DNA of 64,000 bases from Chaetoceros tenuissimus (lineage: Eukaryota; Bacillariophyta; Thalassiosirophyceae; Chaetocerotales; Chaetocerotaceae): contig BLLK01000062.1 in NCBI GenBank assembly GCA_021927905.1, positions 62,001 to 126,000 of the forward strand. The letters are read 5' to 3'. Made by a program: the position numbers and the translations under genes. The notes under the pieces were generated by a model. The model saw only the letters and a list, made by a program, of their open reading frames with translations, searched no databases and had not been told where the DNA came from. Of this stretch, positions 5,749-49,542 are shown one piece after another. Each line of letters opens with the position of its first letter. Positions within the stretch are counted from its first letter, which is position 1.

Positions 5749-6025
5749 AAAGCAATCAATAGACAATATGATGTTGGAATGCATCAGGTAGTAATGACTT
5801 TAAAAGAAAAAACACTTGCACAGTATTATTGAAAAAAATAAAATAAAAATAATTTTAGTATCAAAATATAATGATTTGTAATTGGGAAGGAATATATTGC
5901 AGTACATTGAATGATATCAAGTCATAATTCCATGATTCAAGTCATGATCCGTCATTCCATTCGAAAGCACAGCTTATTCATTTCTTCCCATATTCCTACA
6001 TTTTCTTAGAGAGGTTGACGTGTGC
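5749..6025. other. shared 3' region of two convergent genes
   Basis: This is the 3' UTR space of TM9SF (plus) and the probable selenoprotein glutaredoxin (minus). A SECIS element for the latter should lie here on the minus strand. Several ATGA motifs and short inverted repeats occur between about 5900 and 5985 in minus-strand sense, but by eye none makes a convincing SECIS core with a GA quartet and an apical AA at the right spacing. Confidence 0.4.
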
Positions 6026-6556
6026 TTACATGGCACCAACAGCCTTCAACATCTCATCTAGTTTGCCACTCTCTGACATGTTTGCGATGCCACCATAAGG
6101 ACCGCCCTCATTACATCCTCCGCAAAATTCTCCCTTGATCCAGAGAGCAGGAACAGATGATCTACCAATCATCTCCATCATTTCCGCTCTAATAGCCTTT
6201 CCCTCTGGATCCGTATCCAATTCCACCACAGTATACTTTGCTTTCTTTGCATCAAGGATTCCTTTTGCCTTGATGCAATAAGGTCATGTAGTGAAGGAAT
6301 ACATGAGCACAGGATTGTCAGTCATATCATTCTCCATTCTGTTTCGAACTGAGACACTGTCATATTCACCAGCTAATGATTTGACAAGACCCTTTTTACC
6401 ATCTTTGAGAAGAGTGAAAATGTTTTGGAGTGGATTGTTCATGGCTAGAGAAGAATTGGATCTGTTGAGGTTGAAATTTGGACGAGGTGCAAAGCCCTGC
6501 ACTGCTCCAGGTCCAATGGATACAAGGAAGAGAAGAACACTTGATAGGGTCTTCAT
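6026..6556 (-). CDS. probable selenocysteine glutaredoxin (UPYC)
   Basis: Dithiol-type glutaredoxin that reduces disulfides with glutathione. Reading from ATG at 6556, an in-frame TGA at 6286-6284 (codon 91) falls exactly on the first catalytic Cys of the CPYC motif. The frame then continues unbroken to TAA at 6026, with PYCIKAKGILDAKKAKY, the VELDTDPEG block, the cis-Pro segment GRSSVPALWIKG and the glutathione-binding GGC. The product is 176 aa if TGA is read as Sec. The N-terminus is a signal peptide with AVQGFAP, matching the diatom ASAFAP plastid motif, so a plastid location is likely. It is divergent from mitochondrial GRX5 (356 bp apart). No convincing SECIS was found by eye, so a Cys-to-stop mutation stays possible, though damage at just this codon with an intact remainder would be a coincidence. 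Confidence 0.75.
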
Positions 6557-6912: not shown

Positions 6913-7371
6913 ATGATGTCCTTAAACCTTCTTTCCCGCGCAGCAGCTAGAAGCGCAAGAATTTCAACAGCAAGAGTTGGACCAGTATCATTCTTCTCAG
7001 ACGACTCTCATTCCGACTTTGCACCAAAGCGTAAAGTAGTAGCAGATGACGATGAAGCACAAAAGATGATCCATGAACACGTAAACAATAACCGAATCAT
7101 GCTTTACATGAAGGGAAATCCAAGTATGCCAATGTGTGGATTTAGCGCTACTGTTGTCAAAGTTTTGCAAGATCAGGGGGTTGACTTTTCTTCTGTGAAT
7201 GTACTTGATTATCCTGCGATTAGGGAGGGAGTCAAGAAGTATTCGGATTGGCCTACTATTCCTCAATTATATGTTGATGGAGAGTTTATTGGAGGATGTG
7301 ATATTATTACTGGTATGCAAGAATCTGGTGAACTCACTGAACTTCTTCAAGAGGAAGAAAAGAAGGAGTAG
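6913..7371 (+). CDS. GRX5: monothiol glutaredoxin GRX5, mitochondrial
   Basis: Monothiol glutaredoxins of the GRX5 type pass [2Fe-2S] clusters to acceptor proteins in mitochondria. The 152-aa product begins MMSLNLLSRAAARSARISTA, an amphipathic Arg/Ser-rich presequence suited to mitochondrial import. The domain shows ILYMKGNP-like strand (MLYMKGNPSMPMCGFS) with the CGFS active site, then WPTIPQLYVDGEFIGGCDI, which holds the cis-Pro and the GGCD glutathione-binding motif. The start at 6913 (second of several upstream codons) is chosen because it begins the presequence; an in-frame ATG at 6871 would precede it. It shares a promoter region with the minus-strand TGA-containing glutaredoxin. Confidence 0.95.
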   Translation: MMSLNLLSRAAARSARISTARVGPVSFFSDDSHSDFAPKRKVVADDDEAQKMIHEHVNNNRIMLYMKGNPSMPMCGFSATVVKVLQDQGVDFSSVNVLDYPAIREGVKKYSDWPTIPQLYVDGEFIGGCDIITGMQESGELTELLQEEEKKE

Positions 7372-32140: not shown

Positions 32141-34014
32141 ATGGCGGACTATTTTGAAACTGTTGCATCCGAAGACGGCTTGGCCAGAGTCAATTATGGA
32201 ATGATGATGACTTCAGCTTCCATGTCTATAATTTGCTCTTCAACCCTTGCTTTCTTTATTTGGAAAACTACAGGAGAGAATGGATTTGACACGCCCTACA
32301 AAAGGTATCTTTTGGCTATTTGTTTATCTGACATCCTCCAATCATCAGCTCTTCTTCTTGGTCCACTGGCAGTCCCTAAAGATGCTTCTCCAGACTTTTT
32401 CATGGCCAAAGGTAACATCTATACTTGTACTCTAGATGGCATCGTTTTCCTAAGTGGAGCCTACGGTGTTCCGTTCTATATGTTAGCTTTATGCTTCTCG
32501 TTCCTCTTCAAAATCAAGCACAATATGAAGGATAAGGATTTCCTCAAGAAATACGACAAGAAAATTCACATCTTTGTTGCGGTATGGACAATTGTCATAT
32601 GCACTGGCTCTGCTTGGAGCAAAAACATATACGCAACCCAATCAGGATCCTTCTGTTATCCTCAACGCCCGTACCCATATGGCTGCGAAGAGGACCCTCT
32701 CAAGTATGGAGAGTGTACTCATAATAAGCAAGGTCTCCTTATTTCATTCGTGACTATATTTCTTGTGACAATAAGCACGTTCATTTGCATAATAGTGATT
32801 ATGGTGAAGCTAGTGAAACATGTCGTGAGCATCGGAGACACAACTCGTAGAAGATTTCGACAGAGTCTGTACTTGCCGAGTTCTAGTCCACAAAATAGTC
32901 CTTCTAGAAGAGCACTAGCTAATGCAAATCAAGCAGTGCTTGAGCTGAACAATTCATCTTCTAATAGAGGCAATTTCTCAAGGGGTCTGGATAGTATTAG
33001 CTCCTCTGCACAATCTTCAGGTGCTGACAGTGTCCGTATGCAAAATCCAACAGATGAAGGCACGAGTAAAAAGTCAAATTTGAAGAAAATTCTTTTGTTT
33101 TTCAAAGAAAGTTCAACTTTATCAAACGACGACGCTAGGGAACCACATTCAAACTTCATGACAAAAACCCAGCAGAAGGTAAGTTTCTAATGTGTAATCA
33201 GTTGTGCATTATCATTGATACTGTTTTAATAATTGAACATCTATTTTTCTCATTTGGTCAATAGACTAAAGAGCGCGAGAGAGATATTACCATCCAGGCA
33301 CTTTTGTACGCTGGCTCATTTCTATTCGTATACATGTGGCCATTGATTGGTTCAATTCTTCTATTGTTTGGAGCACTCGAAAACCCTGTGGCTTACTTTA
33401 GTTTCATGATCGTTGGTTTCACTATTTATCCCATGGGAGGTTGCTTTAATGTATGGGTGTATACTCGACAGAAATCCCTCATTGTCATGAAGCGACGTTC
33501 ATGTTCAAGACTATCTGCTTTCTTGGCAGTCATTGCACATGGTGGAGATTTGCCAGAAGACTGTAAGAAAACGACAAGAAGAAACAGGGCTAACGGTCTA
33601 CAAGCAGAGAAAAGTAGATCTCCTCTTGGCCAGCAAATTTCCATGAGATTCAAGAAATGGAAAGAGAAGAGACAAGCTAATAGAGCTAATAGAAAAGAAG
33701 CTACTTCCAATAAACAAGCTTGCTCTCAACACCAGGAACAAGTGAATGATGTAAAGCTCGAGAAGCCTCCACCAAAAGAGGAGGATGCTGGACTTGTTGA
33801 TGTACCATTGGAAAGTGCTGTCATCTCAAATGGTGGTGATGATCTAAGTGTCGATGAAGATAACTTTGGGCGTCTTGAATCGGGGATGTCTTTGGAGAAG
33901 AGCTCTGTCTATGATCACCAATCAAATGAAAGAAGTAGTAGTAGGGCCAAACCTTCCTTTGTTTCGCTCGTCTCAATGGCGGTCGTCTATTCCAGAGAGC
34001 TTTGCAGACGATGA
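32141..34014 (+). CDS. 7TM G-protein-coupled-receptor-like protein
   Basis: Exons 32141-33178 and 33265-34014 (86-nt intron, phase 0) give 595 aa. Five membrane spans lie in exon 1 (TM1 around SMSIICSSTLAFFIWK), then a long Ser-rich third intracellular loop (about residues 230-355), then TM6 (LLYAGSFLFVYMWPLIGSILL) and TM7 (YFSFMIVGFTIYPMGGCFNVW), and a charged C-terminal tail. The second extracellular loop has FCYPQRPYPYGCEEDP and a third Cys before NK, a pattern shared with the receptor at 40608-42383. It lacks clear DRY and NPxxY motifs. Most likely a stramenopile receptor family of the rhodopsin/cAMP-receptor type; ligand unknown. Confidence 0.75.
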
Positions 34015-47077: not shown

Positions 47078-49542
47078 TTACATAAGTTCCTTATGCGTGT
47101 ATGATTTTGTTGGATTCTCTCCTCCGAATTCACCAACATAATTCAAACCCTCTGATCTTAATTGCCACTTAGTTGTAAGGAGTCCCTCAACACCGACAGG
47201 TCCACGGGCATGGATTCTTCCAGTTGAAATACCTACTTCTGCACCAAGTCCAAAGCGGAACCCATCTGCAAATCTTGTAGAAGCATTCTTGAATACACAA
47301 GCAGCGTCAACATTCTTCAAGAATAGCTCTCCCTCTGGATCTTCGTCAGAGCATACAATTGCTTCGGTGTGGCCACTTCCATATTTATGAATCCAGTCGA
47401 TAGCTACATTGATATCATCAACAATCTCTACCATACAAGTAAGGTCTCCATATTCACACTTTAACTCTTTTGAAGGAGTATCACAAAGACCAGTTTTCAT
47501 TGCAGCTGGACCTCCAAGACACTTAACTCCAGCTGCACGAAGAGCCATGAGACAAGCAACAGCTACGCCATTCTCGAGAGTTTCTTTGTGAAGAAGAAGA
47601 GTCTCCATAGCATTACATGCAGATGGGTAATCAGTCTTCGCATCAACAACTAGTTTCGCTGCGTGATTTTTGTTTGCGGAAGGAGCAACATATACATGAC
47701 ATACTCCATCTGCATGACCAAGAACAGGGATTCTGGTGTTCTTCTTAATGTACTGAACAAGAGCGTTTCCTCCTCTTGGAATAACGAGATCAATGACATC
47801 ATCAAGACCCAACATATCCTTAATTTGATCACGACTTGTAACCAAACCAATGATATGTCTTTTAATCTTTCCACCACTTCCCATTTCTACAGCATCTCCA
47901 ATGACTTTGTGAATAGTAGCATTGGAGTGAGTTGCCTCTTTACCTCCCTTAAGCAAGAGTCCATTTCCAGAAGCAAGAGCTAGTGCTGAAATTTGAGGCA
48001 TGGAATCTGGACGAGATTCGAAGATAATCATCAACACACCAATTGGTACAGTAATCTGGGAAAGTTCAAGTCCATCTGCTAATTCTCTCTTTGCTTTCAC
48101 TACTCCAAGAGGATCCTTTTGATCAGCAATTTGACGAATACCCGATGCAAGAGTGTTCAACTTCTCGTCATTAAGTTTTAAACGTCTTACTAATTGTACC
48201 GCTGTTCCATCTTTATTTGCAGCTTGTAGATCTTTTGCATTAGCTGCAAGGATTTCCTCCTTATTTTGAAGAAGAGCATCAGCGACGGTGTAAAGAATTG
48301 CTCTTCTCTCTTCGTATGGAAGCGTTTGCAATTTTCTAGCTTCATTTCTTGCTTTTGTAGCCATAGTTCTCGCTTCATGTGGAACTTCTCTCCCTTCAAT
48401 CCTTGCCTATTTACAAATTAAGCAATAGAATAAGTATATAAAGTCATTAGCTATATAAAAAACCTATACCAAACTTTAAAACTTACCACCAATGTATCAA
48501 CCTCCTTTGCAGCAAGATCATAGAGTTGGGTACCTGGTGTTACAAACAATGTACCCTTTGGCTGTGGACAAACCATAGTTCCTACAGTAGAACGAATCGC
48601 GTCCAAATCATGTCCACCTACAACAATACATGCGTTACATTTGCTTCCAGGTTTGACAGCTCCAAGCGCAGCATCGATCTTTGCTCCCATACCACCACGT
48701 CCATGAGTACTTTTTTCACCAATCTGAACTTTATCCACATCTTCCATGAAGAATTGAATTAACTTTGATCCAGCTTCCTTTGGAGGGCGGTCATACACAC
48801 CAGGAACATCAGTCAACATTACCAATACTTCGGCATTAAAACTTCTAGCACAAAGAGCAGCAAGTGAGTCGTTATCCGAGAAGACATCTTCAGCAGTATA
48901 TCCCTTGTTTCCACTGACAGCATCATTCTCATTGATAATAGGTACAATACCAAGACTTAACAATCTCTCAATGGTGTAACTCAAGTTAGTCAATCTATCC
49001 TTGTCCTGGAAATCATGTTGAGTCAATAGAATTTGAGATGGAGTAATTTCCATCTGAGTAAACAAAGAAGAATACAAATTCATCAATTCAAACTGTCCAG
49101 CAGCCGCACAAGCACTATCATAATGCTTCTTCTTTTGCTCATGATGATAACTTGCATCCAAAAGATTTGCAAAAGATTGCGATGGTGCAAAACTATTTTC
49201 ACTAGATCTATTCAAAAGAGATCCACGAAGCCCTCCTCCCATAGCGAGAGATTGGTCAATAGATCTATTGGATCCTTCATCGATGGAAAGTTCATTGAGT
49301 GAAAGGTTCTTTCTTCCTTCTTTGCGGAGTACACGTCTTCCCATTCCTGTTGCTCCACTGGATACGAAAATGACTTCAATACCACTCTTGACCAATTCAG
49401 AAATCTGCTCAGTAATTGCACCAATACGTGAAAGAGATACTTGACCATTTTCATTGGTAAGTACTGATGTACCCGCTTTTACTATAACGCGGCGTGCTGT
49501 ACGAAGTACTGCTCTAGATGTTGGTTCTTGTGTCGATGACAT
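47078..49542 (-). CDS. P5CS: delta-1-pyrroline-5-carboxylate synthase
   Basis: Bifunctional first enzyme of proline synthesis from glutamate. Exons 49542-48487 and 48406-47078 (80-nt intron, GTAAGT...TAG) encode 794 aa. The N-terminal glutamate 5-kinase (ProB-like) shows RRVIVKAGTSVLTNENGQ, IFVSSGATGMGRR, IINENDAVSG, DNDSLAALCA and GRGGMGAKIDAA. It contains a Ser/Asn-rich insert of about 50 residues (about 75-130) absent from bacterial ProB. The C-terminal gamma-glutamyl phosphate reductase (ProA-like) has MIIFESRPDSMPQISALA, HADGVCHVYV and the catalytic Cys in DYPSACNAMETLLLH. The fused order is that of plants and animals. No clear organelle signal. The kinase part has no PUA domain, as expected for P5CS. 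Confidence 0.95.

Follow-up and report, generated by a model that had tools for sequence, protein, structure and literature searches.

We conclude that a glutaredoxin gene in the window (the whole 64-kb stretch of DNA analyzed here) very probably encodes a selenoprotein, with the UGA at codon 91 recoded through a SECIS element that lies about 69 nt past the TAA stop codon and with the help of the cell's own tRNA-Sec. The earlier note had called this gene a likely selenoprotein, and that judgment is now supported by the selenocysteine (Sec) machinery of the genome, by ten other Sec genes, and by a SECIS-like element in the matching place. Gene finders would truncate the protein (Grx) at residue 90, whereas the full frame probably specifies a selenoenzyme, and one that probably belongs to the plastid. 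As we picture it, the gene lies in the nucleus of an alga, probably a diatom, that makes selenoproteins; it would encode a glutaredoxin with selenocysteine as its nucleophile (U91-P-Y-C94), selenocysteine would actually be incorporated at codon 91, and the product would act as an oxidoreductase that depends on GSH and attacks through a selenolate. As a glutaredoxin of the UxxC type, it should attack disulfides or GSH mixed disulfides through the selenolate, with resolution by the second active-site residue, here Cys94, or by GSH. The features on which this reading is built are listed in Table 1.

Table 1. Features of the proposed Sec-glutaredoxin gene and its candidate SECIS element, in window coordinates
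Feature	Position	Strand	Remark
Sec-glutaredoxin CDS	6026..6556	-	176 codons + TAA; no intron required
Signal-peptide-like start, 21 residues to VQG, then FAP: plastid-type presequence	6494..6556	-	judged by eye from the translation
PF00462 glutaredoxin domain, residues 83-144	6125..6310	-	profile match
Proposed Sec codon 91 (TGA), in place of the catalytic Cys of CPYC	6284..6286	-	context TGAC
Candidate SECIS, 3' of the stop	5907..5966	-	core 69 nt past TAA
Helix I 5' arm GAATGG	5957..5962	-	pairs with 5914-5909 (TCATTC)
Quartet of the candidate SECIS, 5' strand: AATGAC	5951..5956	-	
Quartet of the candidate SECIS, 3' strand: TGA (as Y-GA)	5917..5919	-	
Helix I 3' arm TCATTC	5909..5914	-	

Translation of the coding sequence bears out what had been claimed of it: its single in-frame stop is a TGA in place of the first Cys of CPYC, giving U-P-Y-C, and with this TGA read through both VPALWIKG and GGC are present. 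The read-through protein matches PF00462 at 67.3 bits (cut-off, 22.9) and 52 distinct chain sequences in the PDB at E <= 0.001, with a CPYC-type glutaredoxin at the top, and it has the marks of a glutaredoxin, namely the PF00462 domain, [C/U]xxC, the cis-Pro, and the GG motif. Among its relatives in the same genome, the residue aligned with the TGA is Cys in L002, L004, and L008 and Ser in L003; L002 (FTTCPFC), at 39% identity, is the closest Cys relative that we found. The Ser-containing L003 (ESSPSC; G000:C16:3471172-3471549) is itself a plastid-type relative, and an AGE(Y/F) segment ahead of the domain is common to L003, Sec-Grx, and L002. On viral contigs, the catalytic site holds Cys in 15 of 15 loci, although one of the query peptides, CPYCIKAK, favors Cys. 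The window also contains a CGFS-type monothiol glutaredoxin at 6913-7371 on the plus strand (PF00462, 74.1 bits), which stands head to head with Sec-Grx, their start codons 356 nt apart, and the two genes may have a common promoter region.

The position of the TGA is difficult to attribute to chance, since 22 other codons of Grx are also one step from TGA and the sole TGA is the catalytic one, and since the 85 codons that follow it are without a stop, a run equalled by only 10 of 5,000 single-base shuffles of that part. It is also unlikely that the TGA belongs to an intron, because it lies within the active-site motif and the homology to L002 and L003 runs through it without a break. These same properties bear on the possibility that we are dealing with a pseudogene, or with an allele in which a recent nonsense mutation landed on the catalytic Cys. 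The weakness of the SECIS hairpin, described below, and the reliance on one assembly only would fit such a history, but the precise placement on the nucleophile among 23 possible one-step codons, the open frame beyond it, and a SECIS core in the right place all argue against decay, and we consider it very unlikely.

Searches of the genome itself (41.0 Mb in 68 contigs, within which the window is C48:62001-126000) indicated that the machinery for selenocysteine is at hand. Five matches to tRNA-Sec exceeded the Rfam cut-off, of which ARAGORN called three as tRNA-Sec(tca) and placed no call at the other two; SepSecS was found with an E value of 5.6e-113; and L046 contains AIRS and AIRS_C by Pfam and looks like SPS/SelD. 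Ten other genes have a TGA at a Sec site: SelT (CTSU), three GPx (SKUG, SRUG, and SEUG), SelM (CSGU), two MsrA (GUFW), and three SelU-like genes (SLGUPFC, RRPGUVLC, and RHFGUFLC). In the three SelU-like genes, the Sec site falls outside the Pfam match. Across 86 protein matches within the genome, an internal TGA occurred once each in 10, a TAG in 1, and a TAA in none, and 8 of the 10 TGAs were at catalytic sites (Grx, SelT, the three GPx, SelM, and the two MsrA). The other two internal TGAs, in L075 and L094, lie inside the domain match and were judged intronic. By all signs in its sequence, this genome makes selenoproteins.

Five tRNA-Sec-like genes above the cut-off seem many for one genome, and two of them are unusual. 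One (L012:1501-1586, or G000:C34:1126986-1127071; 69.6 bits, above the Rfam cut-off) has, by eye, the anticodon loop CCTTAAA, which would give the anticodon TTA (codon UAA) in place of TCA. It drew no ARAGORN call, is separated by 2.8 kb from a normal tRNA-Sec gene, and may be a pseudogene or an odd suppressor. Another (L013:1501-1598, or G000:C54:1808110-1808207) has a 12-nt insert that appears by eye to lie at the canonical tRNA intron place, 37/38.

The earlier note had seen no clear SECIS, and on this point our analysis departs from it, as a candidate element that matches the signature of the ten other Sec genes was found downstream of the stop (Table 1), where it could act if, as we infer, the 3' UTR of the Grx mRNA extends that far. 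Six 3' regions compared side by side, that of Grx included, each contained AATGAC 45 to 70 nt past the stop, and the motif was present also in five genes added later (GPx3, MsrA1, MsrA2, SelUb, and SelUc). In its fuller form, [GT]AATGAC[AG] within 130 nt past the stop, the signature occurred in 10 of 10 other Sec genes (at 39 to 87 nt) and in Grx, versus 0 of 21 controls, and the odds of such a split between the other Sec genes and the controls are 1/C(31,10), or 2e-8. Among the controls, L045 does contain AATGAC, at 92 nt, but the bases on either side of it do not fit the pattern. The 21 controls include L094, and some of their ends are the ends of longest frames, at which a last exon was possibly missed; they leave aside L004 to L006, whose frames are unclear, as well as L092, L093, L098, and most of the Trx-domain loci L047 to L076. 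No AATGAC was present within 200 nt past the frames of L092, L093, and L098. An ordinary Cys glutaredoxin in which a sequencing or assembly error had turned TGC or TGT into TGA would require a single wrong base, and the sequence analyzed is that of an assembly, yet nothing would lead such a gene to possess a SECIS-like element that none of the controls has, and we regard an error as extremely improbable.

The resemblance among these elements extends to their structure. Each of the eleven pairs the base that follows AATGAC with the one that precedes Y-GA, which sets UGAC opposite YGA as in a SECIS quartet. A hairpin in exact register with Y-GA was found in 10 of 10 other Sec genes, with scores of -8.8 to -17.8 kcal/mol, and in Grx, with a score of -8.3 kcal/mol. 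Among 44 other core sites, in 713,030 bases read on both strands, 6 had any exact-register hairpin and none scored as well as Grx, and among 4,000 randomly planted cores 58 (1.45%) did so. With 44 cores per 713,030 bases, the joint chance of finding both the core and such a hairpin within 130 nt is about 1.2e-4, which is an estimate and not a blind test, since Grx was in the set in which the motif first came to notice and its own score served as the threshold. The core rate itself is slightly low because the own-genome loci partly overlap, although none of the odds is sensitive to its fine value. Under an earlier, loose-register scoring, in which Grx likewise reached -8.3, there were 46 other core sites and at least 10 of them were as good; two of these proved to be the elements of the SelU-like genes L025 and L026, in which the TGA is visible, and were moved to the positive set. 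Exact register separated the two sets. Aligned with MAFFT, the ten elements left too many gaps for a covariance model.

Within the window, 1 of 12 strict cores passes, and it is the Grx site. Relaxing the core to AATGA gives 346 sites, of which 3 pass: Grx, 33745 (+), and 48346 (-). The latter two hairpins, at -12.8 and -9.0 kcal/mol, both score better than Grx; they lie inside long ORFs on the same strand (33304-34014 and 47078-48364) and for this reason are probably due to chance.

Folded without constraints, the Grx element arranges helix I, the quartet region, and helix II as in the SelM element, and this fold is retained when the 149 nt from the stop onward are folded together. Helix I (GAATGG/TCATTC) is well paired. 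Helix II consists of eight pairs with a bulged A, a mismatch, and two further pairs, and at -2.9 kcal/mol it is the weakest among the eleven elements, versus -6.3 to -17.4 kcal/mol for the others. Compared with shuffled sequences, the Grx element is of ordinary stability (z of 0.13, with 104 of 200 shuffles as good), and the ten other elements range in z from -0.06 to -5.46, with 6 of the 10 above -1.3. The default SECISearch pattern expects an unpaired AA or CC 10 to 13 nt after the quartet, as the relevant passage of PMC2375036 has it. The unpaired AA of Grx lies outside this range, at 14 nt. Of the 10 other Sec genes, 3 have an AA or CC at 10 to 13 nt and 7 do not, so this spacing is no marker of selenoproteins in this genome.

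When a strict SECISearch-type pattern was combined with an energy filter, the AATGAC elements of Grx, SelT, GPx1, and GPx2 all escaped it, and a first scan for RTGA...GA hairpins listed the elements of SelT, GPx1, and GPx2 and missed that of Grx. The Rfam model RF00031 (SECIS_1) gave no match in the Grx region, at SelT, or at the three GPx loci (E <= 10), and none in a genome-wide search that scored 133 of its 890 first-look candidates; in the window, no Rfam family reached its gathering score. The Rfam SECIS model is silent at the four of those Sec genes tested and across the genome, and [GT]AATGAC[AG], followed in exact register by a hairpin and Y-GA and common to the ten other Sec genes, can serve as a working SECIS signature here. 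To decoding of the TGA as another amino acid, through a variant code or SECIS-free readthrough, we give next to no credence, for although TGAC is a leaky stop context, the relative L003 terminates at a TGA with apparently unrelated residues beyond it, and internal TGAs in this genome gather, as noted above, on catalytic sites.

As to where Grx might act, the signal-peptide-like start followed by Phe at +1 (VQG-FAP, of the ASAFAP type), as judged by eye, suggests that Grx may be imported into the plastid. Similar presequences (ANA-FVP and TNA-FIH, again by eye) are found elsewhere in the genome, and presequences of this kind hint at a diatom or another stramenopile alga. A search of the literature for exact phrases on selenoproteins of plastids or chloroplasts returned no paper, which says little.

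A possible partner for Grx is found among the other Sec genes. The two Sec-MsrA genes, L095 and L096, lack the C-terminal resolving Cys that is present in L091, which is of the Cys type (RCYG): after U, L095 has no Cys and L096 has one, in KCQYR. L096 also has a plastid-type presequence by eye (AHA-FVS). The core strands of its SECIS (GAATGACGGA...ATGACTYGA) resemble those of Grx. By its title, a study by Kim from 2011 is said to concern a selenoprotein glutaredoxin adapted for the Sec-MsrA of Clostridium oremlandii. According to PMC4333827, that Sec-MsrA, which is without Cys, is recycled by glutaredoxin and not by thioredoxin. Given Sec-MsrAs without a resolving Cys, the C. oremlandii case, and the presequence of L096, a "tandem selenium" relay for repair in the plastid of a eukaryote, with Sec-Grx as the dedicated reductase of the same genome's Sec-MsrAs, is conceivable, and we offer it as a speculation that is more doubtful than probable. 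If the MsrA link were true, it would tie the need for selenium to the repair of oxidized plastid proteins.

Sec-Grx as a kind of protein is already known, having been published from algae and bacteria, which agrees with the earlier remark that selenocysteine glutaredoxins occur in a few of each. PMC7539508 reports Sec-GRX from a number of SAR algae, the diatom Fragilariopsis cylindrus among them, and from haptophytes, and it gives 20 to 44 selenoprotein genes for diatoms. Grx resembles these algal proteins in its exchange of Sec for Cys, in belonging to a selenoprotein-rich photosynthetic eukaryote, and in having Cys relatives in the genome. F. cylindrus has a Sec/Cys GRX pair that is a recent duplicate (PMC7539508), whereas the closest Cys relative found here is considerably more distant, as given above.

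Bacterial SECIS elements sit within the coding region, and Grx differs from the bacterial Sec-glutaredoxins in its eukaryotic-type element 3' of the stop and its plastid-type presequence. PMC13188914 describes Sec-Grx from a limited number of bacteria, with UxxC in a PF00462 domain as in Grx, and in C. oremlandii a Sec-MsrA without a resolving Cys occurs alongside Sec-Grx, as it does in this genome. With CPYC dithiol glutaredoxins (PDB 7ncv and 4i2t), Grx shares the domain, the place of CxxC, the cis-Pro, and the GG motif, and it departs from them in its proposed Sec nucleophile and in an extra Cys (GEFCGGC). Three residues before U, Grx has Phe where many of its relatives have Lys.
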